This document shows positions 305-62,556 of a stretch of DNA of 64,000 nucleotides, in pieces; within the stretch, counting starts at the first letter, position 1, and every line of letters begins with the position of its first letter. The notes beneath the pieces were generated by a model. It did no database searches. It had not been told where the DNA came from and saw nothing but the letters and a program-made list of their open reading frames with translations. The translations under genes were made by a program, and so were the position numbers. Origin of the DNA: a virus; the IMG/VR virus record IMGVR_UViG_3300022868_000015, positions 24,479 to 88,478 of that record. One strand, 5' to 3'.

Positions 305-1690
305 ATGATCAAGAAATACAATGATTTTATTCAACCTATAAATGAATCAAGAGTTAAAACTTTTGGTTTTCCAAATGAAGTTAATAATGAATTAAGTAAG
401 AATGATATTAAATCTTTGAAAGAAGTAAAATATGGTGGTAAAGGTAAAAAATTATTATCTCAGAAAATTATTAATATTGTTAATAATAAAGAATCTATTG
501 TAATTGAAAATAAAAAGAATAATGAATATCTAATTCTTATACCTAAAAGTCAAGGGTTTACAATTTATTATTATAATGGTATTAGAATTCTACCACCACA
601 AACATTAAAAACAAGTCCAGTAAATCAAGATATAACATTATTATTTAGTAGAATGTATGAAAAAGAAATCGTACAAATTCCTACACATACAAGCTTTATT
701 AATCAATTCAATCCTAAATATGATCAGTTAAATGTTTATGCTACAAAGGATGTAAAGAACATTGAAACATTTGATTATGTTCAAGTAAAGATAGATAAAA
801 ATGTTGCAGACAAAGTTAATAGATTGACCAAGGGTATGGGTTTTGATATAAGAAGCAATCTAAGAGCAAAAATTTCATTCTTAGCTGATCCATTAAAATG
901 GAAAAATAATCCATTAGATCCAAATACATTACTAACGGTTCAGAATAAAGTTTCATCTATAATATTATTAGATTATTTAGCTGAAATAAAAGATAATTTT
1001 GTTCCATCATCAAGTGGATTTTTATTCGAATCATTCATAGCAGGCCTTATTGGAGGACACGTAGTTGAAGACAATACCCAAGTTGATATTTACCTACCAG
1101 GTAAAGGACCTTATAAATCTAAAAATTATCAATTAAAATTATATGATAGGGGTTCAATGTCTAATCTCAATGTTATAAAGAATAACACTACAAGTTTACA
1201 AAAAGTAATTAATGGTATGCCTATAAGCCAACAAAATTTCATATTGATAGGGTTAAAAATAGATGAAAATATAGAAATGTATTTAGTACCTTTTAATGAA
1301 GAATTTGAACAATTAATGGAAGATGAAGGATTTTTACCAAACCAACCTAAATTAACACCTACATTTTTAAGATCATTTAAAACAAAAAAAGCTTTTTCAT
1401 CAAATATAACTGACAATTTTCAAGAAAGGGGTATTGAATATCTTGGTACTTTAAGATTTGGTAATTTTACCAATAAAATAAATAGTGTTAAAAAAGATCT
1501 TGGGGATTCTCTTAAAGATGTCTGGGAATCAGTAAAGGCACTACATGATGAAATTGACACTTTAGTAACTGGTATAAGTGCTAAGAAAAGAAAAATATCA
1601 GATAAAACAAGGGTGTTAAAACAATCAAAAAAAGTTGATTCTAAAGTTAAAAAATTGTATAAAACAATTATTACAACAGAAGAAGAATAG
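305..1690 (+). CDS. PD-(D/E)XK-like nuclease-fold protein with capsid-tag-like start
   Basis: 461 residues beginning MIKKYNDFIQPINES, which fits the Y-x-x-F-I pattern of T4 capsid-targeting sequences. Around residues 238-280 there is an arrangement typical of PD-(D/E)XK nuclease folds: a helix with Glu (FLFESFIAGLIGG), then Asp in NTQVDIYL, then YQLKLYD supplying the Q-x-K pair. The C-terminal 60 residues are lysine-rich and helical. From established knowledge this residue layout supports a metal-dependent nuclease or a catalytically similar fold. The substrate is unknown. Last + gene before the long minus-strand block; its stop is only a few bases from the convergent gene end at 1699. Confidence 0.6.
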   Translation: MIKKYNDFIQPINESRVKTFGFPNEVNNELSKNDIKSLKEVKYGGKGKKLLSQKIINIVNNKESIVIENKKNNEYLILIPKSQGFTIYYYNGIRILPPQTLKTSPVNQDITLLFSRMYEKEIVQIPTHTSFINQFNPKYDQLNVYATKDVKNIETFDYVQVKIDKNVADKVNRLTKGMGFDIRSNLRAKISFLADPLKWKNNPLDPNTLLTVQNKVSSIILLDYLAEIKDNFVPSSSGFLFESFIAGLIGGHVVEDNTQVDIYLPGKGPYKSKNYQLKLYDRGSMSNLNVIKNNTTSLQKVINGMPISQQNFILIGLKIDENIEMYLVPFNEEFEQLMEDEGFLPNQPKLTPTFLRSFKTKKAFSSNITDNFQERGIEYLGTLRFGNFTNKINSVKKDLGDSLKDVWESVKALHDEIDTLVTGISAKKRKISDKTRVLKQSKKVDSKVKKLYKTIITTEEE

Positions 1691-1698
1691 GTTCAATT

Positions 1699-2016
1699 TT
1701 ATATAAACAACCCATAAACTTCTTCATAACATATAACATCATACTCTTTTATATATTGTCTAGTCTTTGCAACTAAACCAATACTCTTAATTATAAAAGT
1801 GTGCACATAATAATCTAAATTATCAATCTCCTCTTTTTTAGGATCACCGCCATTATAACCAACCGCATGTTTTACTAAATCAACTAATTCCTCTTCCCAC
1901 TCTTCCCATGTCAGATCATCTTCTTCATCTTTATCTATTCCAAAATACTCAAATACATTATCAGGTACTTCATCAAGATTATTTATTCTTTTTAACTTCT
2001 TTTTAAATATATTCAT
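1699..2016 (-). CDS. Hypothetical acidic protein
   Basis: 105 residues, not recognised. The N-terminus is basic (MNIFKKKLKRINN) and followed by an acidic stretch rich in Glu, Asp and Trp around residues 28-50 (DEEDDLTWEEWEEE). It ends EEVYGLFI, a weak echo of the window's G-L-L end motif. It lies directly downstream of another short unknown gene on the same strand and converges with the + gene at 305-1690. Confidence 0.5.
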   Translation of the reverse strand: MNIFKKKLKRINNLDEVPDNVFEYFGIDKDEEDDLTWEEWEEELVDLVKHAVGYNGGDPKKEEIDNLDYYVHTFIIKSIGLVAKTRQYIKEYDVICYEEVYGLFI

Positions 2017-2028
2017 AATTTTCTTTAT

Positions 2029-2388
2029 TTACAACCAAAAGTCATCTAATTCTTCTTTTTCTACAATATATTCTTCTGGAACTTTTGTTATTACTTCTAT
2101 ATTTTTAATATCTACTTGAAGGTTTTCTGAATCTTTTAATTTCATGAACTCAGTTAGAAACTCATCTATTGTCAAGGTGGTAAAATCAAAATCAGAATTA
2201 TGGGGTATGACAACAAACTCAAATATATCACATCTTTCATCTGAATGATCTTGATTCCATTCCCAAAGTAAATAATTGAGGGATTCGACGTGTATATTGA
2301 TAGATTCTTGGGGTTTAGAATTTATTTCAAGTATTCTAAACTCTTTATTCTTTATCTTTTTATATATTTGATTGAAATAGTTTTTCAT
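2029..2388 (-). CDS. Hypothetical protein
   Basis: 119 residues with no recognised domain. Composition is mixed alpha/beta with a hydrophobic middle (DIFEFVVIPH) and an acidic C-terminus. The start overlaps the stop of the upstream minus-strand gene by four bases, the usual ATGA-type coupling in this region, so the two are probably co-translated. Confidence 0.5.
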   Translation of the reverse strand: MKNYFNQIYKKIKNKEFRILEINSKPQESINIHVESLNYLLWEWNQDHSDERCDIFEFVVIPHNSDFDFTTLTIDEFLTEFMKLKDSENLQVDIKNIEVITKVPEEYIVEKEELDDFWL

Positions 2389-2717
2389 TGTTTTATTCTA
2401 TCTAATTTTAATTTTCTTTGTTTTCTAATATATTCTTTATTAAAACCTTCTTTTGAAATACAATTATATACCCACTCATCCAACTTCTCAATAACATTTT
2501 CATCAACATCTTGTCCCTGTACATCTAAATCTGTTAATTCAATAATACTATCACCAATATTTTTTATTAATTGTGAATAGTTATAATGGAAATGAAATGT
2601 TATTCCTTTTTTCATAAACCACAAATGAACATAATTCGTAACTTCTGGATGATCATTTAATTCAACTTTTATACAATATTCTTCTGAATATTTTTTACTT
2701 AATTCATTTACATTCAT
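2385..2717 (-). CDS. Hypothetical protein with C-terminal basic tail
   Basis: 110 residues. The body is unrecognised, but the last 14 residues (IRKQRKLKLDRIKQ) form a basic tail that also ends the products of 14890-15261 and 49704-50135 and recurs in degenerate form elsewhere. The bodies of these proteins are unrelated by eye, so the tail is a shared terminal module rather than family homology. The start is one base inside the stop of the upstream membrane-protein gene. Confidence 0.55.
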   Translation of the reverse strand: MNVNELSKKYSEEYCIKVELNDHPEVTNYVHLWFMKKGITFHFHYNYSQLIKNIGDSIIELTDLDVQGQDVDENVIEKLDEWVYNCISKEGFNKEYIRKQRKLKLDRIKQ

Positions 2718-3532
2718 TATTCAAATCTTCTTTCTTTTTCCATTCTCCTTAAACATTCTAATGGGGTTTCATTATTTTTAATATTATAACCACATCCTAA
2801 AGTACCACCTTTCCATGAGCCTGTTCTTTCTCCTACTTCACTACTAAATTCTATACTTATATCCTTACTAACCTTAGCAAATAACTTAGTCCATTTAAAC
2901 CATCTTGGTCTCCATTCTCTTTCTTCAACTGTAATTGTAGCATTAACTTTTTGCACTGTTGTATTACTTTTAATTATAATAGAATCACCTATTTTTTGTT
3001 CTGATTTTCTTTTCATAACATATTCATATGGATATGTTTCTATAAACACTAATTTAGGATCTTTCCATTTATTATCATAAAAAGATTTTCTATCTTTTTT
3101 TGTTTCGTGTTCCCATGTGTCATCTCTTAATAATAAAGATGTTCTAATCCAATCATATTGCCAAGGCATATCAATTGTTTTCCATTTAGTACCCCCTTCA
3201 AAATTCCCTGCACCTCCAATATAAAACCATAAAGTATTACCATGATAGTTTATTCCCCATGAGGCACTATCACAATCTTGTATTCCTGTCTTAATAGGTA
3301 AATTGATATACATTTTACCATAACCATAAAAAATTAAAGGCAATAAAAATAATGCATTTAATGTGAATATCAATAATATAGGTATTAACAACATAAAAAA
3401 TAATTGTGTTGCACTAATTATAATATTAGGTCTTTCATCAAAATAACCTGCCTTGTCTAACTGAAAACCAAAATTGAATAACTTGTATATTCTTACCCAG
3501 CCTTTATTTTCTGTTAAGTATTTTCTTTTCAT
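2717..3532 (-). CDS. Conserved phage membrane-associated protein of unknown function
   Basis: 271 residues. A strongly hydrophobic segment at about residues 38-74 could span the membrane once or twice. The soluble remainder is rich in Trp and Tyr and carries segments such as EEREWRPRWFKW and GERTGSWKGGTLGCGY, ending NETPLECLRRMEKERRF. I recognise this arrangement as a conserved hypothetical protein seen in many large phages, but its function is not known. It is transcribed with the small genes downstream of it on the minus strand. Confidence 0.6.
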   Translation of the reverse strand: MKRKYLTENKGWVRIYKLFNFGFQLDKAGYFDERPNIIISATQLFFMLLIPILLIFTLNALFLLPLIFYGYGKMYINLPIKTGIQDCDSASWGINYHGNTLWFYIGGAGNFEGGTKWKTIDMPWQYDWIRTSLLLRDDTWEHETKKDRKSFYDNKWKDPKLVFIETYPYEYVMKRKSEQKIGDSIIIKSNTTVQKVNATITVEEREWRPRWFKWTKLFAKVSKDISIEFSSEVGERTGSWKGGTLGCGYNIKNNETPLECLRRMEKERRFE

Positions 3533-3558
3533 ATATTTTCTTTTAATATTTTTATCAT

Positions 3559-4248
3559 TTAATATTTCATTTCTTCTATTGCATATGATGGTATAAAATC
3601 ATATGTGTAAAATGCATCAACACCTGGATATTTTGGATCAGTATATAATCTGAGTTGGTTTAATTTTTTCACATTTATTTTCAATATTAACGGTTTAAAC
3701 GTATAATCTAAATCAATTTTTTCTTCAATGAAATTATCAATATATTCTAAAGTATCAAAAAAATAAATCCTTTCTGGTTGATTTTCTAATGTATTTTTAG
3801 ATTTTATAGTTAATCCACTTTTCAATATTTTGTCTTTATGTTTTTGATCTGAAACATGATATAATACGGTTTTTATCCCTTTATCTTCAAAATCAAAATT
3901 CTTATTGATAATAATAGAAAGTTTATTATTATTAAAATAATCTTTTATAGTTAGATTTCCTTTAATGAATTTGTTATCATCTCCTTTATATTTTGATATA
4001 TAATAACCAGATATATTTAATAATGAATGTAAATCATCAAAAAATTCTTTTGTTTTAATATTTGTAAAATTTACAATAACACCATTATTGATTGATATAT
4101 CATATAATATATGATATTTTTTAAACAAATTTTCAATTTTCTGTTTTAATTTATCATAAGTAAAAGAATATATTAAACCCTCTACTATTAAAGTGTTTGG
4201 TATACCTTTTATATGATCATAATTACGATACTCATTATAAGTTTTCAT
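3559..4248 (-). CDS. Tagged protein with ADP-ribosyltransferase-like C-terminal domain (paralog 1)
   Basis: 229 residues starting MKTYNEYRNYDH, close to the T4 capsid-targeting pattern. The C-terminal half (about 128-229) has YHVS, IL-K-SGL, PERIYFF and LYTDPKYPGVDAFYTYD. This order (Y-H-x-S, I-x-x-x-G-L, R-I-Y) resembles the H-x-[ST] start and GL helix of ADP-ribosyltransferase-fold proteins such as the Tpt1/KptA type. Two paralogs occur at 4312-5046 and 30663-31343. T4 Alt is a capsid-packaged ADP-ribosyltransferase, so a packaged ART-like effector is a reasonable inference. The fold assignment is by motif only. Confidence 0.5.
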   Translation of the reverse strand: MKTYNEYRNYDHIKGIPNTLIVEGLIYSFTYDKLKQKIENLFKKYHILYDISINNGVIVNFTNIKTKEFFDDLHSLLNISGYYISKYKGDDNKFIKGNLTIKDYFNNNKLSIIINKNFDFEDKGIKTVLYHVSDQKHKDKILKSGLTIKSKNTLENQPERIYFFDTLEYIDNFIEEKIDLDYTFKPLILKINVKKLNQLRLYTDPKYPGVDAFYTYDFIPSYAIEEMKY

Positions 4249-4311
4249 TTTTTAATCTATTTTTTTATTTTTCTATTCTCAATTTCAGTGATAGTCCACT
4301 TTTTGGGCAAT

Positions 4312-5046
4312 TTAATATAATTCATAATTTCCATTTTCTTCATCAATTATTGTTATTAAATTTTTAGGTATATTATCAACACAGTAAAATCCTTTATCTT
4401 CATAATTTGGATCTTCGAAAATATCAATGTTACTATTAGTTAAATCAATTTCGTAAATAATCCATTTATCATTAATTTTGGATTTTGATCTTTTTTTATA
4501 ATTATATTCTAATTTCATTCTTGGTATTAATGAATAACAATCATTTACATCTTTACATATATAAATTCTATCTAAATGTTTAGATAATTTTGATTTTGAT
4601 TTTGGTATAAGTCCTTTATTTATTATCTTTTCTTTATATTCTTGAATAGATATGTGATAATATATGTCATTTGCAACTTTTTTATCATATTTAGCTTCAT
4701 AAGTTATAGAAACTTGTTCTAAATATTCAGCATTTTCAATTAAATAATCTTCATTATATGACAATTCATTTTCATTTTCTGATAAATTGACTAAATACAT
4801 TTTAGATGGGAACCATCCATGTCTATCTATCATCAGAGAATCTAAATATTCTAAGGTAATTGGTATATTTTTAATAAATCTAAAACCATGTAAGTTAATA
4901 GTAATTGTATTATTCTGAGATTGTATTGAAAAATCATAATTTAATAAATTAAGTTCACTTTTAACATTTTTAATGGTTGAATTTAATTCATGTGTTTTAA
5001 GTGTTTCATTTAAAATATATTCTGAATATGTGTTAATCTTTTTCAT
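4312..5046 (-). CDS. Tagged protein with ADP-ribosyltransferase-like C-terminal domain (paralog 2)
   Basis: 244 residues starting MKKINTYSEYILNETL, which contains the Y-x-x-Y-I-x-N/E tag pattern. The C-terminal half aligns with 3559-4248: YHISIQEYKEKIINKGLIPK, then DRIYICKD, and a final FEDPNYEDKGFYCVDNIP segment. N-terminal halves of the paralogs share a weak pattern of short strands. It lies between two other tagged genes on the minus strand. Function is inferred only from motif resemblance to ART-fold proteins. Confidence 0.5.
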   Translation of the reverse strand: MKKINTYSEYILNETLKTHELNSTIKNVKSELNLLNYDFSIQSQNNTITINLHGFRFIKNIPITLEYLDSLMIDRHGWFPSKMYLVNLSENENELSYNEDYLIENAEYLEQVSITYEAKYDKKVANDIYYHISIQEYKEKIINKGLIPKSKSKLSKHLDRIYICKDVNDCYSLIPRMKLEYNYKKRSKSKINDKWIIYEIDLTNSNIDIFEDPNYEDKGFYCVDNIPKNLITIIDEENGNYELY

Positions 5047-5049
5047 GTT

Positions 5050-5316
5050 TTATAATAATCCTAATTTTATTGAAGATATTTTTGAATCTAAATCTTTATC
5101 TAAAAAATAATTGAATTTTTCACTGTTATTTATACTATCATAAACACATATCCATGCTTGTTCTTCACTTAGTCCAAACGGGACAGCAATTTCATGAAAA
5201 CCTACGGTAAAAGATGACCAATCTTCATATATTGGATTAAATTCAAACCTACTTTTATTAGTATTTTTAATACAATCATACATTTGTTTTAATCTATTAT
5301 AATTATTCATATTCAT
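5050..5316 (-). CDS. Hypothetical protein with G-L-L end tag
   Basis: 88 residues, unrecognised. It ends SSIKLGLL, matching the C-terminal motif shared across this window. Two ATG codons lie at the start (MNMNNYN), and either could be used. It sits 3 bp from the upstream and downstream genes, so it is part of the same transcript as the ART-like paralog. Confidence 0.5.
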   Translation of the reverse strand: MNMNNYNRLKQMYDCIKNTNKSRFEFNPIYEDWSSFTVGFHEIAVPFGLSEEQAWICVYDSINNSEKFNYFLDKDLDSKISSIKLGLL

Positions 5317-5319
5317 ATC

Positions 5320-5913
5320 TTACCAAATGTATAATCCTTTATCGTTAATAAAACCATCGCAATAAAGCATTTCTATATTATAATCAGGAAAAACTAATAA
5401 TAAAAAGTTTTTATATAATTTAATTTTAGATTTTAAAGTTGTATCACCAATAATATAGTATTTTGGAATATCTATTCTGTTTAAAATGTCACCAATTCTT
5501 AATAAAACTTCTCTTGTTTCATCTAATTTGGTTAATTCCTCATAAGATTCATCATATATAGAATTATCTTTTAACGTAAATGAAATACTCCAAATAAATT
5601 CAGAATCTATTTTCATATTATAATTAATCATTGGTATCAAATCAACCCTATATTCAGTATCAGAATCAGTTTTAAAAAATATTTGATAACCGTGGCCATT
5701 ATTATAATTTGAGAATTTATCTCCGAAAACATATTTACTTATACTAAATTTAGTGTTTGGATACAATTTGTCAAAAGATTCAAAAACTGATTCTCTAAAT
5801 TTTTTGTAAGTGTAAATTTTCAAAAATTTGTCTAATCTCTCACTATTATTCTCTTTAATGTAATTATTATAAGTAATATGTGAAACCATTATATTATCAA
5901 CTTTAATTCCCAT
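5320..5913 (-). CDS. Phage conserved protein, paralog of 31355-31891
   Basis: 197 residues. The centre contains YQIFFKTDSDTEYRVDL and, further on, a segment in which a beta strand (WSISFTLKD) is followed by a helix (LDETREVLLRIGDIL) and IIGDTTLKSKIKLYKNFL. The same succession occurs in 31355-31891 and more distantly in 8750-9340. I recognise this layout from proteins of large myoviruses that carry capsid-tag-like starts; no activity is known. The N-terminus HITYNNYIKENN around residues 13-24 may be the tag if translation starts later than the chosen ATG. Confidence 0.5.
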   Translation of the reverse strand: MGIKVDNIMVSHITYNNYIKENNSERLDKFLKIYTYKKFRESVFESFDKLYPNTKFSISKYVFGDKFSNYNNGHGYQIFFKTDSDTEYRVDLIPMINYNMKIDSEFIWSISFTLKDNSIYDESYEELTKLDETREVLLRIGDILNRIDIPKYYIIGDTTLKSKIKLYKNFLLLVFPDYNIEMLYCDGFINDKGLYIW

Positions 5914-5917
5914 AATT

Positions 5918-6124
5918 CTAAAATTTTAAATCCAATATCCATGATGAATCATCTTTTAAGACTTCTAATGAAATTTCAATATATAACTCATTATCATTCA
6001 TTTGGATTTCGTTTAAATAGTAATCTACATATAAATCATCAAGTATTATATATTCTTTATTATTTAAACTACTAAACTCTTCAAATGGATCTAATGGTTC
6101 ATAAAAAGAATTATAGGTTAACAT
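5918..6124 (-). CDS. Small tagged hypothetical protein
   Basis: 68 residues beginning MLTYNSFYEPLDPFEEF, which keeps the Y-x-x-F of the capsid-tag-like starts. No domain is recognised. The rest is strongly acidic with alternating hydrophobic residues. It is the first gene of the minus-strand cluster running down to 1699. Confidence 0.45.
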   Translation of the reverse strand: MLTYNSFYEPLDPFEEFSSLNNKEYIILDDLYVDYYLNEIQMNDNELYIEISLEVLKDDSSWILDLKF

Positions 6125-6213
6125 TGTTTTTTCACCTGATGTTAAATTCTATTATAACTTTCTTTATTTCATTATACTTTTTCATTTTGTTATTTGTTTT
6201 TTAATTGTTTATA

Positions 6214-6408
6214 TTAGTAAAGTCCCATTTTATTTGCATTATAAAGGTCTGGATTTTCTTTTTTCCACCATTCCCAATAACCATCTAAATTATTATAAGG
6301 TAATTGGTTTGTATCACAATATAATGCTTTTAATCCTTTAGGCAATTCTGGCAACACATTAAATTTATTGTTAATACAATTTAAATCTCGTAAATATTCT
6401 AATATCTT
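6214..6408 (-). pseudogene. C-terminal remnant of a leucine-rich-repeat tagged gene
   Basis: The minus strand reads an open frame without a start codon: LNCINNKFNVLPELPKGLKA, then a cap NLDGYWEWWKKENPDLYNAN and an end NKMGLY. The cap and end are nearly identical to the C-terminus of the intact LRR protein at 46756-47415 (YWEWFWKENPDLYNANKMGLM). An in-frame stop lies directly upstream, so this is a 5'-truncated paralog and shows that the LRR genes have been duplicated and deleted within the genome. Confidence 0.7.
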
Positions 6409-6457
6409 TTACTATTAATTTTTAATTTTATGTTTTTGAATAATTTACGTATACACA

Positions 6458-8422
6458 TTATATCTCTTTTATTGTTGAAGGTGTTACATCTACGATATTA
6501 CCAAATTTATCTTTAATGCGAACCTTAGTTTTAAGTTGTTTAATAATTTTAACTTCCTTAGTAGTTATCTTCTTACTACGACCAGTATATTCATATACCT
6601 CACCAATTTTGAAAAGTTTACTATTTGTGTTGATATTTGCACCTATAGATTTTTCAATTTTAACAGGTTTTTTATTATAATATTCAGGTATAGATTCGTC
6701 TATAAACTTCCATTCTTCGTCTGTTATCTTAAAATGTTTTATTAGTTTTTCATCAGTCCACTCTTTTGTAAAATCTAACCAAGGAACAGATTCTAATTCT
6801 CCACCATGTAAAGTTTGACTAGTTTTAAATAAACTCAATGAAAATCTTGCAATTTTAGTCATTAAATAATTTCTGAAATTTTCACTCTCGATTTGAGTAT
6901 CAAAACCATATTTTAATTTGTATTTTGTGGTTTTCCCTATATGTTCAAAAGGTTTTCTAATTTGTAAAAATGTATAATAATCATCCTTGAGAAGTTTTTG
7001 ATTATCTTTTTCAAAAACGTGACCTCGAATTGGACTAAAACCAACTTCATATTTTTTATTATTTGTCGTTTTTGTCCCGTTATATATTCTTTTACATCTA
7101 TCTCCCCAAAGATGACCTTTTTTACAATGTTTTAAAATCTTCAACTTAATATTATTAAATATTTCCCCGTTACCATGCATATTTATTTTTCCAATTGAAT
7201 CTACAAAATATTCTTCATTTTTCATTTTATTTAATACTTTGATATTTGAAACTTTATCAGCTAAATAAGTTATTGAACATGGATAAAATAGACCAATATT
7301 AAAAATAGGATTACCATTAAACAACGTTACTTTATTTAATCTCTCATAAACATGATCTCTAGTTTCTTTAAAAATTTTATTTTTACCTTTTTTATCAATT
7401 ATCCAAATTGAAGGATGAATATATAAAATTTTATCAGAAATATCATAACTTTTTGTTAAAAATTTTAAATCTATATTTTGTGTATATGGGGGATTACCCA
7501 CAACAATATCAAATTTCTCAATTCCCCATTCTTTCATTTTATCATCAAATCCTTTTTCAAGAAAAGATCCGAAATGGTAATTCATGTTATATTTGTGTTC
7601 TCTATCAAATAAATTTAAATAAATAAACATATTCTTTGTACTAATATCACAAACATAAATCATATTCTCCATTATATGTTTATATCTTTTTTCAGCATTA
7701 CTTTCCCAATCTTTTAAACCTTCCATAAGCCTTTGTACTATTACAACCGGGAAATTACCAATTCCATTGCAATTGTCAAGTATCTTAAAATCAGGGTTAG
7801 ACCATGTTTCCTGTGGAAGTACGTCTAAGACCTCTGATACCAACGATCCGGGCGTAAAAACTTCACCAAATTCTTTCTTCTCAGCCACCGAAATACCAAT
7901 ATAACTATCAATTCTTTCAATTATTTTATTTAGCTCCGCCACTCTTTTTTCTAAGTCATTTTTGTCAGAATCTAATATCTTATTTAGTTCTGAATCATCC
8001 AATAAATTCTTATTTAGGAAATCATTCTTAACACAATGAATAAAAAAGTCCTCTATTGCTTTAAACTTCTCATTTATATATTGAATTTTAGAATTAGTTT
8101 TAAAAATTAAAAAACTATTTACGAAAAGCTCTTTATCCTCTACGTTATCGAAAATATCCTCAATTCCACCTTTCATATCAATACCTAACAACGAAGAACA
8201 CATAGATTTTCTCCAAGGTTTATTTTGAATAAAATCTTCCCAATTCTCTAATAAAAATACAATAGACTCCTTATATTCATCATTGTTTCTCAATGATAAA
8301 GAATCGTTAAATTTCTCAATAAGTTTAGGGTATATTTTATCATGTGATAACTTTACCTCATATTCATCACAAACATCAAATATATTCTGTATTTTGTTTT
8401 CTATTATGTCTTTTCTAATCAT
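6458..8422 (-). CDS. N6-adenine DNA methyltransferase, Eco57I-like
   Basis: 654 residues. FGEVFTP at about 185-191, ILDNCNGIGNFP around 214-224 (SAM-binding motif I) and FDIVVGNPPYT at 304-314 (motif IV NPPY) identify a gamma-type N6-adenine methyltransferase of the kind found in type I and IIG systems. About 160 helical residues precede it and a C-terminal region, which may read the target, follows. No nuclease motif is visible. It stands about 2 kb from a nuclease and a helicase gene (10692-13270), so it could protect phage DNA from a phage-encoded or host restriction activity. Specificity is not predictable. Confidence 0.8.
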   Translation of the reverse strand: MIRKDIIENKIQNIFDVCDEYEVKLSHDKIYPKLIEKFNDSLSLRNNDEYKESIVFLLENWEDFIQNKPWRKSMCSSLLGIDMKGGIEDIFDNVEDKELFVNSFLIFKTNSKIQYINEKFKAIEDFFIHCVKNDFLNKNLLDDSELNKILDSDKNDLEKRVAELNKIIERIDSYIGISVAEKKEFGEVFTPGSLVSEVLDVLPQETWSNPDFKILDNCNGIGNFPVVIVQRLMEGLKDWESNAEKRYKHIMENMIYVCDISTKNMFIYLNLFDREHKYNMNYHFGSFLEKGFDDKMKEWGIEKFDIVVGNPPYTQNIDLKFLTKSYDISDKILYIHPSIWIIDKKGKNKIFKETRDHVYERLNKVTLFNGNPIFNIGLFYPCSITYLADKVSNIKVLNKMKNEEYFVDSIGKINMHGNGEIFNNIKLKILKHCKKGHLWGDRCKRIYNGTKTTNNKKYEVGFSPIRGHVFEKDNQKLLKDDYYTFLQIRKPFEHIGKTTKYKLKYGFDTQIESENFRNYLMTKIARFSLSLFKTSQTLHGGELESVPWLDFTKEWTDEKLIKHFKITDEEWKFIDESIPEYYNKKPVKIEKSIGANINTNSKLFKIGEVYEYTGRSKKITTKEVKIIKQLKTKVRIKDKFGNIVDVTPSTIKEI

Positions 8423-55963: not shown

Positions 55964-56323
55964 ATGAAAATTAGAAACGGATTTGTAAGTAACAGTTCTT
56001 CTAGTAGTTTTATTATACATGGTGTAAAAATTACAAACAAAGAAGACATTGAAAAATTAACTAAATTATCTTGGCCTGAACAAAGTGAACTTGGTCTTGA
56101 ATTAGAAGAAGATAGATATTTCTTTGGTGGTAATGATAAAGATAACGATTATATAGTTGGTTTAAATGGTGGTAATCTTGAAGATGGTGTCATCGCTGAA
56201 ATTAAACCATTAACTGAATCAAATAAAGAAAAATTGGTTAAAATATTAAAAACATTAGATATTAAGATAAATATTGATAATATTAAAACATATGCTCAAT
56301 ATATAAGCAATGATAATTATTAA
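55964..56323 (+). CDS. Protein with MKIRNGFVSNSSSSSF start
   Basis: 119 residues. The first 17 residues MKIRNGFVSNSSSSSFI form a signature seen at the start of many otherwise unrelated bacterial and phage proteins of unknown function. A second copy starts the next gene. The remainder is acidic and not recognised. No tag at the C-terminus. Confidence 0.6.
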   Translation: MKIRNGFVSNSSSSSFIIHGVKITNKEDIEKLTKLSWPEQSELGLELEEDRYFFGGNDKDNDYIVGLNGGNLEDGVIAEIKPLTESNKEKLVKILKTLDIKINIDNIKTYAQYISNDNY

Positions 56324-56341: not shown

Positions 56342-56683
56342 ATGAAAATAAGAAACGGATTTGTAAGCAACTCAAGTAGCAGTAGCTTCATGATTGAAAA
56401 TAAAACAGATAAAGATTTAACATTAGTGGATTTTATAACTGAACAACCTAATTTAATACAAGAATATGTAGATGAATATGATAGAGATGATCCTGAATAC
56501 ACTCAAGAAAATCTTTTAATCTCAGCAAAATTAAATAATGTTACATTTAAAGCAAAGACAGAAGAAGCTTATACTTTTGGTGATGATGATGGAACATTAA
56601 TTGGTAAGATACTTGATTATATGTTAAGAGATAATTGGGAAACAGAAAGTTTCAAGTGGAAATTTCATAGTTCAAATAGATAA
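56342..56683 (+). CDS. Protein with MKIRNGFVSNSSSSSF start (second copy)
   Basis: 113 residues. The first 16 residues are the same as in 55964-56323, but from MIENKTDKDLTLVDF onward the protein differs, so only the start is conserved between the two genes. This parallels the tag behaviour in the rest of the window. Function unknown. Confidence 0.6.
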   Translation: MKIRNGFVSNSSSSSFMIENKTDKDLTLVDFITEQPNLIQEYVDEYDRDDPEYTQENLLISAKLNNVTFKAKTEEAYTFGDDDGTLIGKILDYMLRDNWETESFKWKFHSSNR

Positions 56684-56685
56684 AT

Positions 56686-57000
56686 ATGTTAATATTTGAT
56701 GATTATAATGATTTTGTCAAAGGAGTTAAAAAACATTTTCCTAATGCAAAAGATTATCCAAACGCAAAAGATATTTGTAAATATAGTTACATAATCTTAC
56801 ATCTAAATACAGATGAAAAAATGATGAAAATTGTTGAAAAACATGCCAAAAATAAAGAAATTAATGAATATTTACCAGTGTATTGTTTATATAATGAAAC
56901 TAAAAAATGTGAAGAATATTGTTGGTTAAACAATAAATGTAAAAAATCTATAAATAGATTCGAAAGAAAAAGAAAAATAAAAAGAATAAAATATGAATAA
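56686..57000 (+). CDS. Cys-containing hypothetical protein with basic tail
   Basis: 104 residues. Cys residues in LPVYCLYNETKKCEEYCWLN and a following CKKS could bind metal. The end RFERKRKIKRIKYE is a diverged basic tail. Its stop overlaps the next start by a few bases. Confidence 0.45.
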   Translation: MLIFDDYNDFVKGVKKHFPNAKDYPNAKDICKYSYIILHLNTDEKMMKIVEKHAKNKEINEYLPVYCLYNETKKCEEYCWLNNKCKKSINRFERKRKIKRIKYE

Positions 57001-57355
57001 AAAAGTATATATTGCATCACCATACACAAAAGGTAATCAACTAGAAAATGTAAATGTTCAAATGGATATGTATTATGAATTAGTACAATTAGGATTTCTA
57101 CCATTTACACCATTATACTCACACTACGTACATGAAAGAAATCCAATATCTTATGATAAATGGATGGAAATTGATTATAAATGGATTGACGTATGTGATT
57201 ATATTTTAAGATTGCCTGGTGAAAGTAAAGGTGCAGATTTAGAAATTGAATATGCTAAGAACCAAAACAAAATAGTATTTTATAGCGTTGAAGAATTAAC
57301 AAATTATATTGAACCTAAACATTTAGATGAAGGTGACATACATATAAGTTGTTAA
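56993..57355 (+). CDS. DUF4406-type nucleoside deoxyribosyltransferase-like protein
   Basis: 120 residues. KVYIASPYTKGN at the start and LRLPGESKGADLEIEYAKNQ near the end are the two hallmark segments of the DUF4406/DUF1937 group, related to nucleoside 2-deoxyribosyltransferases. Such proteins act on nucleosides or nucleotides. The location next to the dUTPase gene supports a nucleotide-metabolism role. Confidence 0.7.
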   Translation: MNKKVYIASPYTKGNQLENVNVQMDMYYELVQLGFLPFTPLYSHYVHERNPISYDKWMEIDYKWIDVCDYILRLPGESKGADLEIEYAKNQNKIVFYSVEELTNYIEPKHLDEGDIHISC

Positions 57356-57371
57356 AAAATAAAAAAAGATA

Positions 57372-57914
57372 ATGATTAGAGGATTTGAAATTGTTTCTGA
57401 TGAACACAGAAAACATGAAAATGTACAACTACCATTAAGGGGTAGTGAAGATTCAGCTGGATATGATTTTTATTCAAATGAAACACATATAATAGAACCA
57501 GGTGATCAAAAAGTTTTTTGGACTGATATCAAAGCTTACATGCAAAAAGGTGAAGTTCTTAAAATATATGTTAGAAGTTCGATTGGTATTAAAAAAGGAC
57601 TTAGATTAGCAAATCAAACTGGGGTAATTGATTGTGTTCCAAAAGGAACTAAAATTAAAATTAAAGATGGTGAAATAAATGTTGAAGATTTATTGGACAA
57701 AAAAAAAATTATTATATCTTATAATGAAGAAGAAGATGAAATAGAAGAAGATGAATTAAAAGAAATATGGATCGTAGATGATCTGGAATTATTAGAAATT
57801 GAGACAGAAGAAGGTGACTCAATTAAAATACCCTTTGAAAAAGAGGTATATACTGAAAGAGGATGGATTAAAGCAAAAAATCTAACTCTTGATGATAAAA
57901 TATTAACATATTAA
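57372..57914 (+). CDS. dut: dUTPase N-terminal half fused to the N-half of a split intein
   Basis: 180 residues. Residues 1-87 hold dUTPase motif I (LRGSEDSAGYDFYSN), motif II (RSSIGIKKGL) and the first part of motif III (LANQTGVID). At Cys88 an intein begins: CVPKGTKIKIKDGEINVEDL (block A), an acidic loop, and EKEVYTERGWIKAKNL near block B. The usual block-B T-x-x-H is replaced by P-F-E-K, a Lys at the catalytic His position. The frame ends at residue 180 without the intein C-half, which is encoded at 59267. Spliced product: a 149-residue trimeric dUTPase that converts dUTP to dUMP. Confidence 0.9.
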   Translation: MIRGFEIVSDEHRKHENVQLPLRGSEDSAGYDFYSNETHIIEPGDQKVFWTDIKAYMQKGEVLKIYVRSSIGIKKGLRLANQTGVIDCVPKGTKIKIKDGEINVEDLLDKKKIIISYNEEEDEIEEDELKEIWIVDDLELLEIETEEGDSIKIPFEKEVYTERGWIKAKNLTLDDKILTY

Positions 57915-58178
57915 ATGGAAAACAAAAAATTAAATAATCTAACAAATGCAGCTAATGATTATAATAAAGGTTTAAACGATTGTGCAATAGTCGATATTAA
58001 TTCAAATTTAGATTTAATTGAAAAAATTGAATTAGATAAAAGTATTAAAGAATCTTTAATACATGCACACAAAAGATTAATAGACATTTTAAATGGTGAA
58101 ATAGACTTGAATGAAGAAGATTATTTGATCTATATTTCATATATACAAGAAATAATTGCAGATTATAGATTAAATTAA
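57915..58178 (+). CDS. Small protein in the intein gap
   Basis: 87 residues starting MENKKLNNLTNAANDYNKGL. It begins immediately at the stop of the dUTPase N-half gene (TAAATG). Helical, acidic and unrecognised. It sits between the split intein halves, upstream of the endonuclease, and may be cargo carried with the endonuclease. Confidence 0.5.
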   Translation: MENKKLNNLTNAANDYNKGLNDCAIVDINSNLDLIEKIELDKSIKESLIHAHKRLIDILNGEIDLNEEDYLIYISYIQEIIADYRLN

Positions 58179-58205
58179 AAAATTAACATAATTCCAGTAT
58201 TAATG

Positions 58206-58216
58206 TTTAATATATA
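58206..58216 (+). promoter_or_regulatory. Putative phage promoter element TTTAATATATA
   Basis: Lies 23 bp ahead of the endonuclease start at 58240, so the endonuclease in the intein gap can be expressed on its own. Confidence 0.45.
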
Positions 58217-58239
58217 TTATTAAATAAATAATTTTAACG

Positions 58240-59286
58240 ATGGAAATATTATGTAAAAATTGTGGTAAATCTTTTAAAGTTGCCAACTGGCAAATTAAAA
58301 AAGGAACAAAATATTGTTCTCATGAGTGTTATTGGGAAGATAAAAGAGGCGGTAAGAAAAAAGAAGAAAAGGTATGTATAGAATGTGGTGAGAAATTCTT
58401 ACAAGAAACTTGGGAAAGTAAAAGAAAATTTTGTTCTCATGAATGTTACTGGAAAAATAAAAAAAAACTAAAAGATATTGATTGTTTGAATTGTGGTAAA
58501 ACATTTGAGCCATATAATTTAAAAACAAAATTTTGTTCTAAAAAATGTTCAGGTGAATATATAAGAAAACAAAACAATAAAATCTGTATTCAATGTGGAA
58601 AAGAATATCATCCATTAATTAAAACTTCTCAATATTGTAGTAGAGAATGTTATTGGAATTATAGAAGAGAAAACAAAGGTGTAATAATACAAACGAATCA
58701 AGGTGATTTTAGAACAAAATTAATATGTAATAATTGTGGAAAAGAATATTTAGAACATAAATATAGATTAAAAGTTTCTAAGTTTTGCTCAATGAAATGT
58801 CATTTTGAATCTAAGAGATTAAAGAAAAAATGTCCAACATGTGAAAAATATTTTGAAGTTCCAAATCACTTAGCACATCGAATTTTTTGTAGTAAAGATT
58901 GTGTAGATTTTACAAATAAATCTAAAAAAGAAAATGACTTTTATAAATTTGTTAACAACATAATAAATGTAGAACAAAATAAAAAGGTTATATATGACAA
59001 AGTTTATTTTCCAGATTTAATGAATGAAGAAAACAAAATAATAATTGAATTTTTTGGCGATTATTGGCATTGCAATCCTAATTTCTATGAAGATGAATAT
59101 TATAATTCAAAAACAAGAAAACATGCACACGAAATGTGGAGCGATGATCAATTAAGATTAGAAAAATTAGAAGGATTAGGATATGATGTTAATATTATTT
59201 GGGAAAATGAATGGGAAACTGATTTAGAATTAGTTAAAACAAAAATATTAAAAATAAAAGATAAATATGAAATACGTAAAAATTAA
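58240..59286 (+). CDS. Zinc-finger homing endonuclease inside the fractured dUTPase gene
   Basis: 348 residues. Six treble-clef-like C-x-x-C ... C-x-x-x-C fingers (for example CKNCGKSFK with YCSHECYW, CIECGEKF with FCSHECYW) cover about 1-225. The C-terminal nuclease has VYFPDLMNEENKIIIEFFGD, YWHCNP, and DDQLRLEKLEGLGYDVNIIW followed by ENEW, the layout of Vsr-like EDxHD nucleases. Such enzymes cut alleles lacking the insert. Located between the halves of a split intein, it matches the fractured-gene arrangement described for metagenomic phages. The last 20 bases overlap the start of the C-half gene. Confidence 0.8.
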   Translation: MEILCKNCGKSFKVANWQIKKGTKYCSHECYWEDKRGGKKKEEKVCIECGEKFLQETWESKRKFCSHECYWKNKKKLKDIDCLNCGKTFEPYNLKTKFCSKKCSGEYIRKQNNKICIQCGKEYHPLIKTSQYCSRECYWNYRRENKGVIIQTNQGDFRTKLICNNCGKEYLEHKYRLKVSKFCSMKCHFESKRLKKKCPTCEKYFEVPNHLAHRIFCSKDCVDFTNKSKKENDFYKFVNNIINVEQNKKVIYDKVYFPDLMNEENKIIIEFFGDYWHCNPNFYEDEYYNSKTRKHAHEMWSDDQLRLEKLEGLGYDVNIIWENEWETDLELVKTKILKIKDKYEIRKN

Positions 59287-59566
59287 AAGAATAGAAAAAT
59301 GTGAATCAGAACCGATTTATCATTTAACAATTAAAAATAATCACAATTTTTTTGGTAATAATTTATTGTTACACAACTGCGATTATTTTGGAAATTCCAA
59401 AAATGACGGAAATATTGGTGCTTGTTTATGGAACCCAACAAACGAACCAATTACTATTAAAAAAGGTGAAAGAATAGTTCAAGGTATATTTGAATTGTTC
59501 TTAGAATCTGATAACTGTAACACCAAAAAAGAAAGAGACGGTGGAATCGGTTCAACAAATAAATAA
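59267..59566 (+). CDS. dut: C-half of the split intein fused to the dUTPase C-terminal half
   Basis: 99 residues. Residues 1-37 are a typical short C-intein: MKYVKIKRIEKCESEPIYHL, then NHNFFGNNLLLHN, ending in the block-G His-Asn. Cys38 is the +1 nucleophile, followed by the dUTPase remainder: CDYFGN completes motif III, GERIVQGIF is motif IV and RDGGIGSTNK motif V. Joining Asp87 of the first half to Cys38 restores GVID-CDYFGN without gap. Its ATG lies within the end of the endonuclease gene. Confidence 0.9.
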   Translation: MKYVKIKRIEKCESEPIYHLTIKNNHNFFGNNLLLHNCDYFGNSKNDGNIGACLWNPTNEPITIKKGERIVQGIFELFLESDNCNTKKERDGGIGSTNK

Positions 59567-59572
59567 CAAAAT

Positions 59573-59779
59573 ATGAAAAACGGAAGTATTTTAGGAAAAC
59601 TCTTTCCTACACAAAATGATTTAATGAATCATCTATCTGAATATGGAATGTTAACAGATAAACAAATAATTGAGCGATCATCCCAAGGTGGTGGATTAAA
59701 TACAGAAGAAGCGTTAATGCTTACTTTGGAAAGAGATTTCTGCAAAGATGTTATTGATAATATAATCAATAAAAAATAA
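59573..59779 (+). CDS. Small hypothetical protein
   Basis: 68 residues starting MKNGSILGKLFPTQNDLMNH. Not recognised; it ends helical (DVIDNIINKK). Follows the dUTPase C-half after six bases, likely in the same transcript. Confidence 0.45.
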   Translation: MKNGSILGKLFPTQNDLMNHLSEYGMLTDKQIIERSSQGGGLNTEEALMLTLERDFCKDVIDNIINKK

Positions 59780-59789
59780 ATAACAAAAT

Positions 59790-60008
59790 ATGAAAACAGA
59801 ACAAATAATTACAGAATTGAGTAAAGCATCAGAAAATGAAGACTACAAACGAGGCTGGATTGCGAATATAGCAATGTCTCAATTAGATAATGAACGTTGG
59901 TATAGAGAAAAACATAATAAAGTTGGTAAATATTTAAATAGTAAAGACAAACATGCTATTGCAAACTTAGGTGCAGAATATTTTATTGAATTACTTACAA
60001 AAAAATAA
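59790..60008 (+). CDS. Conserved small phage protein
   Basis: 72 residues. DYKRGWIANIAMSQLDNERW is a segment I recognise from short phage proteins of unknown function (pattern W-x-A-N-I-A-M). No catalytic motif. Spaced 10 bp from the gene before it. Confidence 0.55.
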   Translation: MKTEQIITELSKASENEDYKRGWIANIAMSQLDNERWYREKHNKVGKYLNSKDKHAIANLGAEYFIELLTKK

Positions 60009-60013
60009 TAATT

Positions 60014-60271
60014 ATGAAACTAAAAAAATTTATTGAAAAGTTTGTTGAACCTAATACATTAATTAGGTTACAATACAAAATAAAAGGTGGACACGAAGAA
60101 GTAGGTAATCTAGGAATGGAATGGGAGTTAAAGGATGGACTGTTTGCTAACCATAGAGTTGTAGGTATAACAGACATACTTGTACGTGGTAATTACACAG
60201 AAGCAGTTAATTTGGTTATTAAAAGAAAAAACAAAATAAATAATTATGTATATATTTTCATACGGGAGTAA
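60014..60271 (+). CDS. Conserved phage protein
   Basis: 85 residues. KLKKFIEKFVEPNTLIRLQY and the following strand ILVRGNYTEAVNLVIKR match a common phage protein of unknown function. A beta-rich fold is likely. The end overlaps the GGCT gene start by 26 bp in another frame. Confidence 0.6.
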   Translation: MKLKKFIEKFVEPNTLIRLQYKIKGGHEEVGNLGMEWELKDGLFANHRVVGITDILVRGNYTEAVNLVIKRKNKINNYVYIFIRE

Positions 60272-60665
60272 CATGAATGTTAATAGAATGAACGAAAGAG
60301 GAGTTAAATTCTCTAAAATAATTCCAGTAGTTTTAGATGATTTTATTCTGAAATTCAATAAAGTCTCTAAAAAACAAGGAGCAGTTGCAAATATACAATT
60401 TTATAAAGGTGGTATTGTTGAAGGTATCTTATATGAAGTTGAATCTTTAGAACAGATGGATCGATACGAGGGCTTTCCTAATCACTATAATAGAGTTAAA
60501 ATGGATATCGAAGGTTATGATGCATGGGTTTATATCGCACAACCTCAATATATTCAAGAAGGTCTAAAACCTAAACAAGAATATTTGAATCACTTATTAG
60601 AAGGTAAACAATTTCTAAGTGATGAATATTATGAAAAATTAATGATGATAAATGAGTCTTTGTAA
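60246..60665 (+). CDS. Gamma-glutamylcyclotransferase-like protein
   Basis: 139 residues. MYIFSYGSNMNVNRM is the substrate-binding YGSN loop and EQMDRYEGFPNHYNRV contains the catalytic Glu75 of the GGCT fold. Known members release 5-oxoproline from gamma-glutamyl compounds. Phage-borne copies occur in large myoviruses, with unknown benefit, possibly shifting host glutathione or protein gamma-glutamyl links. Confidence 0.8.
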   Translation: MYIFSYGSNMNVNRMNERGVKFSKIIPVVLDDFILKFNKVSKKQGAVANIQFYKGGIVEGILYEVESLEQMDRYEGFPNHYNRVKMDIEGYDAWVYIAQPQYIQEGLKPKQEYLNHLLEGKQFLSDEYYEKLMMINESL

Positions 60666-60901: not shown

Positions 60902-61297
60902 ATGAAAAAACAAGAAATTCCACTTCAGTTGAAGATACAAGTACCAAAACCTGAAGGTTTAAACAAAAAACAATTAAAAAAACAATTACAAGAACTACAA
61001 TTTGAATATGATTCTCTTTTTGATAAATTTTACACTAAAATAGAGATTATATTCACATATTCAAAAGATAATTATTGCCATTTTGAAAAATTAGAGATTG
61101 ATGAAAATATATTTGCATTTTTAATAAATGTTAAAGATATAACTAGACAACAAGCAGAACAACGATGTTGGGAAGTAATGAAGAATTATGAAAAATATGA
61201 TGATTGTTTAATAATTTGGTTGCCATCTGTTATAGAAGAAGACAAAATTGTAAAACTTACAAACACCACAAAAAATATAGAACTATGTCATGATTAA
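60902..61297 (+). CDS. Hypothetical protein upstream of the terminase-like gene
   Basis: 131 residues. Helical N-half (KKQLKKQLQELQFEYDSLFD) and a beta-rich C-half (IIWLPSVIEEDKIVKL). A TTTAAGTATATA element lies at 60871-60882. It overlaps the next gene by eight bases, so they are coupled. Not recognised. Confidence 0.45.
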   Translation: MKKQEIPLQLKIQVPKPEGLNKKQLKKQLQELQFEYDSLFDKFYTKIEIIFTYSKDNYCHFEKLEIDENIFAFLINVKDITRQQAEQRCWEVMKNYEKYDDCLIIWLPSVIEEDKIVKLTNTTKNIELCHD

Positions 61298-62189
61298 GAA
61301 AATAAAAGCAGTGACTAAAGATTATGTAAAAGAACATAAAGATCTTTATGATAAAGGTTTACCTAATAAATATATGGAATTATTCCATCAAAAAATTGAA
61401 GGTGTTAGAAAGGCAAAAATTGTGTATGGTTTTAGTCAAGCTGAAATGATTGAATATAGTAAATGTCAAAATGATATAATATATTTTATTGAAAAATATT
61501 GTTCAATATTAACACCTGATGGTATTGTTAAACCTAGATTATATGATTATCAAAAAACAATGTTAGAAAATTATACAAATAACAGATTTAGCTTAAATAT
61601 GATAAGTAGACAGATGGGTATTTCAAATATCATTGCATGGTTTACTTTACATATGTTAACTTTCAATGAAAGCAAAAATGCAATATTCATGGATATAAAA
61701 TCAGGGTACTGTAAAAGTTTATTAGAAAAAGTTAAAACATCATATAAAATGTTACCTTTCTTTCTTCAAAAAGGTGTCATAACATGGAACCAAAGATCTA
61801 TAGTTTTAGAAGATTATAGTCGTATTACTACACAATCCTATTCTAAAGAACCGGTGATTAGCTCTGATATTCACTTATTATATATGGATAATTACTCTAG
61901 AACTACAACATCAGAAACATCATACAAATATTTATTACCAACAATCACATCTACAAATGATTCTAGAATAATAATATCAGGTAAACCTAAAGGTTTTAAC
62001 CACTTTATTAAACTACTTCATAATAGTGAATTACCTTCAAACCATCCAGACAAAAATATATTTGAATCTTTAAGAGTATATTGGTGGCAACATCCAAATA
62101 AAAATGAAGAATGGAAGAAACAGGAAATAGAAAATATTGGTCAACAAATGTTTGATCAAGAGTATGATTTAAAATTTACAAATAAATAG
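61290..62189 (+). CDS. Degenerate terminase large-subunit ATPase domain
   Basis: 299 residues, about half of a T4 gp17-type TerL. The layout is that of gp17: QNDIIYFIEKYCSILTPDGI, LYDYQKTMLE, then SRQMGIS (106-112) where Walker A should read SRQ-x-G-K-[ST], LLPFFLQ-like KMLPFFLQKGVITWN, and LLYMDNYSR (Walker B with Asn in place of the catalytic Glu). Key Lys and Glu are lost, and the C-terminal nuclease domain is absent. The sequence is otherwise well preserved and free of stops, so it may have a regulatory or structural use instead of ATP-driven packaging. Confidence 0.75.
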   Translation: MIKKIKAVTKDYVKEHKDLYDKGLPNKYMELFHQKIEGVRKAKIVYGFSQAEMIEYSKCQNDIIYFIEKYCSILTPDGIVKPRLYDYQKTMLENYTNNRFSLNMISRQMGISNIIAWFTLHMLTFNESKNAIFMDIKSGYCKSLLEKVKTSYKMLPFFLQKGVITWNQRSIVLEDYSRITTQSYSKEPVISSDIHLLYMDNYSRTTTSETSYKYLLPTITSTNDSRIIISGKPKGFNHFIKLLHNSELPSNHPDKNIFESLRVYWWQHPNKNEEWKKQEIENIGQQMFDQEYDLKFTNK

Positions 62190-62223: not shown

Positions 62224-62248
62224 ACACATTAGCTAAAGACTAATGTGT
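62224..62248. repeat. Terminal hairpin of an IS200/IS605-type remnant
   Basis: ACACATTAG-CTAAAGA-CTAATGTGT is a perfect nine-base stem with a seven-base loop, at the 3' end of the TnpB fragment. It resembles the right-end hairpin of such elements. The fragment's stop codon lies within the stem. Confidence 0.6.
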
Positions 62249-62524
62249 TTCAGGTTTCATAGACTCATCTAATGACAACGCCTCCACCTGTTTTTGTTTA
62301 ATGTCCGACTCAATCCCTGAACCAGACAATATTTTTAATCCTTGTTTTAATATGTTTTTAGCTGCATTAAAATCTCTATCATGATTGGTTTCACATGATG
62401 GACAAGTCCATTCTCTATCTTTTAATGTTAAATTTTGGTTTATCCAACCACAATTAGAACACATTTTACTTGATGGAAAAAATCTATCAATTTTTACATA
62501 TTGACTCGTATCCTCGTATTTTTC
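62240..62524 (-). pseudogene. TnpB C-terminal remnant
   Basis: The frame [31 protein letters not shown], and [12 protein letters not shown] is the end of an OrfB/TnpB with its zinc ribbon and final RuvC Asp. It extends beyond the first ATG, and a stop lies directly upstream at about 62525, where the sequence changes to a more G+C-rich type. It is unlike the intact TnpB at 20528 (which lacks the second zinc pair). Only the last quarter of the gene remains. Confidence 0.75.
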
Positions 62525-62556
62525 TTAACGTGAAGCGAGGTTGCTCATTGCATCCG

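Follow-up and report, generated by a model that had tools for sequence, protein, structure and literature searches.

A dUTPase gene probably fractured by a split intein and a homing endonuclease in a giant phage, with relatives in which the gap nuclease has decayed

Fractured genes, said to have been described by Dassa et al. in 2009, reportedly include gp41, NrdA/NrdJ and IMPDH as their host genes. The jumbo phage vB_PaeM_MIJ3 presents a comparable case, in which PolB is divided by a split intein, an HNH nuclease lies between the halves and block B of the intein keeps DH (PMC6892783). In our study, we analyzed a stretch of viral DNA of 64,000 nucleotides, hereafter the window, which covers positions 24479-88478 of an 88,478-bp IMG/VR virus record (IMGVR_UViG_3300022868_000015; G000). 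The window encodes, in two separate pieces, a dUTPase, the enzyme that excludes uracil from DNA. We consider it highly likely that this dUTPase gene (dut) is a fractured gene, whose halves would be joined by a trans-spliced split intein and whose gap would carry a homing endonuclease that, in the wider family, later decays. The parts of the locus are as follows.

57372-57914, + strand: N-half open reading frame (ORF), 180 aa; the extein ends ...GVID and is followed by CVPKG... (junction D87/C88)
57372..57632, + strand: N-extein, dUTPase residues 1-87, with motifs I, II and the start of III; ends GVID
57633..57914, + strand: N-intein, 93 residues from Cys1, then stop; net charge -14
57915..58178, + strand: 87-codon ORF, starting directly after the stop of the N-half
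58240..59286, + strand: nuclease, 348 aa; CxxC/treble-clef-like finger repeats at about residues 1-225, EDxHD/Vsr-like catalytic domain at about 226-345, with the motif EFFGDYWH
59267-59566, + strand: C-half ORF, 99 aa; starts MKYVK, C-intein end LLLHN, then CDYFGN (junction HN/C38)
59267..59377, + strand: C-intein, 37 residues ending HN; net charge +3
59378..59566, + strand: C-extein, the rest of the dUTPase from Cys+1, with the end of motif III, IV and V; stop included

The original prediction, made from the DNA letters, had placed the dUTPase in two genes about 1.35 kb apart, with an N-intein from Cys88 after GVID, a C-intein ending LLLHN before a Cys, and a gap holding a zinc-finger EDxHD nuclease and an 87-codon ORF. 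The coordinates and junction residues agree with it, and the gap (57915-59266, 1352 bp) contains both of these genes as + strand ORFs of 348 and 87 aa, the nuclease overlapping the C-half by 20 bp. The alignment of the N-extein with viral dUTPases that are uninterrupted extends to about residue 87/88, and each half matches part of the Pfam dUTPase profile PF00692 (N-half, E-value 1.9e-8, profile 2-78; C-half, 6.2e-6, profile 69-128). Joining D87 to C38 in silico, which in the original prediction restored GVID-CDYFGN, yields a single full-length match to PF00692 (1.7e-17, profile 2-128 of 129), a match to the solved dUTPase 3h6x over residues 3-148 (6.1e-28) and a match to NF010561 at 1.7e-41, yet under the curated cut-off of that model (141.5 of 223 bits). 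The joined product presents dUTPase motifs I-V, placed by eye.

The phage that carries this split dUTPase is a giant phage, known from a 348-kb record. This second record (G001, 348,222 bp) is a twin of G000, identical over the 12,167 bp compared, and the two appear collinear further left, where repeats match both at a constant offset. An intact dut elsewhere in the genome had been named beforehand as the result that would speak against a fractured gene; no second or intact dut is present in G000 (88,478 bp) or G001 (348,222 bp), where the only dUTPase matches are the two halves.

The same layout recurs in other viruses. Two loci found by protein similarity, L004 and L006, have a dut fractured at the same codon as in the window, and a DNA pattern for HN-C-x-Y-x-G-[D/E] returned 53 viral stretches, of which 49 are fractured dut C-halves; this pattern fixes the codon, the HN and Cys+1, so fractures at other dut positions would escape it. 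We analyzed 51 rows, consisting of the pattern set plus the window, L004 (the same contig as L057) and L006, with L058 dropped, as it ends with its stretch. Because the same architecture is found in about 50 other viral contigs, the split layout is not due to chance, and the proposed fractured-gene architecture of split intein plus gap nuclease fits. An assembly artefact, or a group I or II intron in place of the intein, is hardly credible: all the sequences are metagenomic contigs, but the two records of the phage agree over 12.2 kb, the layout is shared partly or wholly by those other contigs, and the intein motifs are found at the protein level. A search of window positions 56500-60500 for group I or II introns gave no Rfam match at E-values up to 1.

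In 43 of the 51 rows the N-half is visible too, the remaining eight having too little upstream DNA. The gaps of these 43 rows contain a putative PD-(D/E)xK nuclease of 277-308 aa in 35 cases, the EDxHD nuclease in one (the window), a nuclease remnant in one (L070) and no ORF of at least 80 aa in six; a nuclease ORF of at least 277 aa is thus present in 36/43. P239, D240, E253 and K255 of the relatives' gap nuclease are invariant in 13 sequences, and fold searches returned only weak matches to Bax1, TnsA and Hjc, none with an E-value <0.001. Successive stages of decay can be followed in these gaps. The nuclease of L070 is a frameshifted pseudogene, with both dut halves still open, while about 0.8 kb is gone from L084, L088, L091, L096 and L099, leaving a 3' nuclease stub with 95% (L084) and 93% (L091) identity to L070. 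The sixth nuclease-free row, L063, is cut at its 5' end and was left out of this alignment.

A pattern search returned no second fractured dut of the window type, only the same phage, and none of 62 pattern stretches from bacterial genomes (0/62) looks by eye like a fractured dut. Among GenBank phages, neither half of the window dut nor the N-half of L048, one of the fractured relatives, is covered to 80% by any record; 13 records cover 80% of the L048 C-half, H111 (82%) surely among them, and in H93 (79/99 residues), H91 and H111 the match lies inside a single coding sequence, hence uninterrupted. Searching with a pattern for the N side of the junction gave two unrelated matches and four dUTPase loci that are uninterrupted and naturally have Cys at +1; of these, L044 and L046 are alike.

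As modelled, the gap gene of the window is an EDxHD nuclease with the fold of I-Bth0305I and Vsr, the class that had been anticipated. Its finger part matches phrog_1271 (1.3e-23), and D259, E270, D274, H277 and D303 are invariant among 20 aligned relatives; reading the name EDxHD onto E270, D274, H277 and D303 is our own assignment. In the structural model, residues 231-340 form a block with a predicted local distance difference test score (pLDDT) of 92-98, while the fingers are mostly <50 and the mean is 61.7. The nearest solved folds to the catalytic domain are 3hrl (Z 11.4), I-Bth0305I (3r3p, Z 11.3) and Vsr (1cw0, Z 11.0); behind them rank 1vsr, also of Vsr, and a mitoribosomal chain from Toxoplasma (Z 10.1). 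The structure 3r3p superposes on the modelled domain over 96 residues with a root-mean-square deviation of 2.5 A and 24% identity. Relatives of this nuclease occur at 36 other viral loci, and in 11 of them an intein C-half lies directly downstream; these 11 include seven near-identical copies (L121-L127) and a weak case (L132, E 0.058), and by eye, SbcC-like, helicase-like and topoisomerase-like genes are among those split. For the 87-aa ORF, phage searches at E-values up to 1 gave no relative, and G001 has no further copy of it.

The window dUTPase nests with six uninterrupted viral dUTPases (49-64% identity, support 100/100) in a tree that included six of 11 such intact relatives and from which truncated or duplicate rows had been removed beforehand. 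It stands apart from 17 other fractured rows (24-37% identity), and it is only 24% identical to the dUTPase of L004, yet both are split at the same codon. The fracture in the window sits in a dUTPase clade that is otherwise intact in our sample. A single clade of fractured duts was rejected (approximately unbiased test, p 0.0002); the best topology needs five changes between intact and fractured states, of which the starred branches force three. In the intein tree, the window intein is paired with that of nrdA in L005 (98/97, long branches), yet a single clade of all dut inteins is not rejected (p 0.318). Two histories fit this intein tree: repeated invasion of one codon by the split intein, or its transfer between dUTPases that are only distantly related.

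Uninterrupted dut alleles, which the original prediction had proposed to look for in related phages, were found with the same upstream gene. With the joined extein of L048 as query we obtained 105 relatives and kept 80 loci, of which 10 are fractured and 70 are uninterrupted, with Ser or Asn at the position of Cys+1. Homologues of the L004 upstream gene (exonuclease-like in our labelling) occur in 80/80 of these loci and of its downstream gene (glycosyltransferase-like) in 77/80, and their adjacency is not constant. Between the fractured L004 and the intact L213, the upstream gene is 93-98% identical and the sequence from the start of dut is 63-74% identical, a drop that marks an apparent recombination border at the dut start.

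The tests of mobility and selection concern the PD-(D/E)xK lineage. In 9/12 pairs, the synonymous divergence (pS) of the exteins exceeds that of the cassette with a 95% bootstrap confidence interval above 0; the 12 pairs were chosen and partly overlap, and for the three nuclease-decayed ones only the intein counts as cassette. Identity peaks in the cassette and tends to drop with distance from the insertion. To judge from these alignments, the lower synonymous divergence of the cassette supports homing in this lineage, and homing is presumed for the lineage of the window. The ratio of nonsynonymous to synonymous divergence (dN/dS) is 0.05-0.15 for inteins, 0.10-0.21 for nucleases and 0.09-0.27 for exteins, many of these pairs having a dS >1.

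Each intein half is recognizable by itself, mostly under the cut-offs of the respective models. The C-intein matches Pfam Intein_splicing (PF14890) at 3.2e-6 (27.5 bits, cut-off 35.8) and NCBIfam intein_Cterm at 0.0085 (16.3 bits, cut-off 15.6); the N-intein matches NCBIfam intein_Nterm at 6.8e-4 (20.6 bits, cut-off 24.5) and PT-HINT at 0.01. Once joined, the halves pass the PF14890 cut-off (1.5e-10, 41.6 bits). The original prediction had proposed to align them with gp41-1, NrdJ-1 and IMPDH-1, and had named halves that align to no split intein as a second result that would refute it. The joined intein does match NrdJ-1 and gp41-1 in the PDB (gp41-1 over its C-terminal part only), together with the Spl DnaX intein; IMPDH-1 is absent from the matches listed. 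Cys1, the C-terminal His-Asn and Cys+1 occur in the window and in 19/19 distinct dut inteins, a constancy of HN and Cys+1 that is partly by construction, being required by the junction pattern and the parsing; the window and L004, both found independently of that pattern, present all of these residues too. The N-terminal intein half (IntN) is negatively charged and the C-terminal half (IntC) positively charged in 19/19, as in natural split inteins.

We propose the following course of events, in which both the splicing and the DNA cleavage are predictions from sequence. The two co-directed genes would give two precursors, dUTPase(1-87)-IntN and IntC-dUTPase(88-149), whose acidic IntN and basic IntC would associate and fold as a single split intein. 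Trans-splicing would proceed by attack of Cys1, transfer of the chain to Cys+1 and cyclisation of the terminal Asn, releasing a dUTPase of 149 residues with catalytic motif III rebuilt at Asp87-Cys88. The EDxHD homing endonuclease most likely cut an uninterrupted dut, and repair would have copied in the IntN-nuclease-IntC cassette. In the wider family the nuclease would then decay and be deleted, leaving a lastingly split yet conserved dUTPase.

Several observations weigh against this reading and have to be set beside the alternatives. As regards the nuclease, Foldseek places the same three kinds of structures on top (3hrl, I-Bth0305I and Vsr) with a best E-value of only 7.8e-3, and sequence profiles against the PDB reach Vsr at an E-value of 0.17, with no significant tie to I-Bth0305I or Vsr. 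As regards mobility, the cassette effect is not significant in 3/12 pairs (L089/L094, L054/L056 and L048/L059), and for L054/L056 the dS of the nuclease (1.67) lies above that of the extein (1.45). Furthermore, the window lineage is represented by a single phage, assembled twice, and lacks a close pair with an empty site, and nine neighbour genes of the window have no match around the intact relatives. The cassette might never home, the nuclease being a passenger and the spread of fractured alleles due to ordinary phage recombination only, since three of the 12 pairs lack a significant cassette effect, phages recombine freely and the border between L004 and L213 lies at the dut start. We regard this as unlikely, given that the nuclease has a known homing fold, that the window and L004 share the codon despite their divergent dUTPases, that the gap nuclease of the relatives is under purifying selection and then decays, and that cassette identity is above that of the flanks in most pairs.

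The remaining points concern the intein itself. The block-B histidine is an almost invariant catalytic residue of inteins. At this position (B:10) all 19 distinct dut inteins lack it, with Ser or Thr in 18 and, by alignment, Lys in the window; the block-B Thr (B:7) is kept in 18/19 and is Pro in the window. No His is common to all the N-inteins among the 19. By eye, the histidine is present in 7/7 other inteins: nrdA (L005), PolB (L036), SbcC-like (L037), ClpB-like (L039), TerL (L291) and the cis inteins of L007 and L038. Because the histidine is absent and Pro replaces the block-B Thr, splicing in the window could be slow or lost. In addition, the C-extein of L006 (2076-2240) has an in-frame internal deletion that removes motif IV and keeps V, either a real loss or a contig error. 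In the extreme case, the window intein would no longer splice and dut would be a split pseudogene in a phage that uses the dUTPase of its host, as a block B reading P..K instead of T..H and the partial loss of the C-extein in a relative might suggest. Such a dead gene is improbable in our judgment: the window keeps the dUTPase motifs, Cys1, HN and Cys+1 with unbroken reading frames, and the dut inteins tested, all without the histidine, are under purifying selection, which is strong in these relatives even after loss of the nuclease.

It is also conceivable that no splicing is needed, with the half proteins forming an active dUTPase by non-covalent assembly and the intein halves serving only as docking tags; split intein halves do bind each other, and dUTPase is oligomeric. 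We give this very little credence, as neither the window nor L004 has lost any of the splicing residues (Cys1, the His-Asn at the intein end, Cys+1), and the break falls inside catalytic motif III, where an attached intein should block the active site.

If the split intein splices, as we favor, it would have to do so without the block-B histidine. The residue at -1 is Asp, a residue of dUTPase motif III, in all 19 dut inteins; the parsing was set to find Asp-Cys, and the only rows from which it returned no junction were L063, truncated at this place, and L006, which it did not parse. We infer, tentatively and with considerable doubt, that this catalytic Asp, along with the Ser/Thr or Lys at B:10, takes over from the histidine in straining or activating the scissile bond, and that the histidine would have been lost because of the insertion site; the window intein, possibly a separate invasion, would have lost it too. 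If so, the intein would depend on an active-site residue of its host protein and, across distant dUTPase families, would be confined to this codon.

The giant phage carries three further fractured genes in G001, namely PolB (L036), TerL (L291) and SbcC-like (L037). The N-half of TerL was recognized by eye, with no Pfam match; the N-half of the SbcC-like gene was not seen in L037, where a PF13476 search was empty and G001 begins inside the nuclease gene. A profile of nuclease relatives (A4) found eight of them in G001, four strong, three of which were in the profile itself, and the TerL-gap nuclease alone as query found four places, itself and three others, all within fractured genes. The TerL gene (L291, 2103-5978) is cut at the Walker A GK/T; with its EDxHD-like nuclease and long C-intein, it is similar to the atypically split class. 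The window itself holds a truncated TerL-like ORF at 61290-62189 (Terminase_6N, 7.5e-7; Walker A SRQMGIS), another TerL of the phage being the fractured one, and, next to this truncated ORF, at about 62239-62530 on the - strand, a fragment that by eye looks like a TnpB-type C-terminal zinc ribbon. Neighbouring ORFs at 55964-56323 and 56342-56683 of the window have a common start, MKIRNGFVSNSSSSSF, and then diverge.

Inteins in other contigs were observed as well. L005 has a fractured NrdA (by eye) at 4021-6576, with a gap nuclease of 253 aa. On the - strand of L039 (912-3137; record G002), a ClpB-like C-half begins with a long C-intein ending HN/CGKTAIVEG (Walker A), and no ORF of at least 150 aa in L039 represents its N-half. 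In L038, a large cis intein lies in a gene on the - strand (1666-3594) that by eye is RlmN-like, of the radical-SAM type.

That dUTPase was unfamiliar as the host of a fractured gene, as the original prediction supposed, is borne out in the open-licence literature searched, where no paper was found that joins 'split intein' and 'dUTPase'. Phage papers on inteins and dUTPase, in the excerpts available, place inteins in TerL, UvrD helicase, ribonucleotide reductase and other genes, none in dUTPase, and among the titles of the matches listed for other dUTPase names nothing concerns inteins in dUTPase. Our results extend the hosts of fractured genes to dUTPase and show that, in dUTPase lineages far apart from each other, one and the same codon is the insertion site, with two nuclease classes that are unrelated. 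The series from intact through nuclease-bearing and decayed to deleted outlines a homing life cycle of fractured genes that ends lastingly split. The dut inteins are, moreover, a natural set without HisB:10, in which the role of this residue is testable with ready-made variants, and they offer new parts for protein trans-splicing tools.

Among known systems, fractured genes share with the window a gene divided by a split intein and a gap nuclease, which is likewise an EDxHD enzyme of the I-Bth0305I/Vsr fold; they differ from it in that here the host is dUTPase, most relatives carry a PD-(D/E)xK nuclease, nuclease-decayed and nuclease-free stages exist, and the block-B His is missing. The catalytic domain of the window nuclease resembles I-Bth0305I (3r3p) in its modelled fold, but it is preceded by a finger array and sits inside a fractured gene. 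The NrdJ-1 and gp41-1 split inteins (PDB 8ubs, 6qaz/6riz) match at the sequence level the IntN of 93 and IntC of 37 residues of the window; they occupy other host genes, and block B reads TPDH in NrdJ-1 and PFEK in the window. MIJ3 is alike in being a jumbo phage with a split gene and a nuclease between the halves, and the phage of the window also has a split PolB (L036), whereas the fracture described here lies in dUTPase, with an EDxHD or PD-(D/E)xK nuclease and without the block-B His. Loss of this histidine has a precedent in the Tko CDC21-1 intein, for which the use of Lys58, outside block B, is reported (PMC4031507, PMC6333167), and a bulky Leu at -1 has been noted there for inteins without HisB:10 (PMC6333167); in contrast to that case, the dut set comprises 19 distinct split inteins, all with Asp at -1, whose B:10 residue is Ser/Thr or, in the window, Lys. 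Fractured genes were thus already known, and what is added here is a dUTPase host, on which no paper was found, the second nuclease class, the decay series and the unusual intein chemistry.

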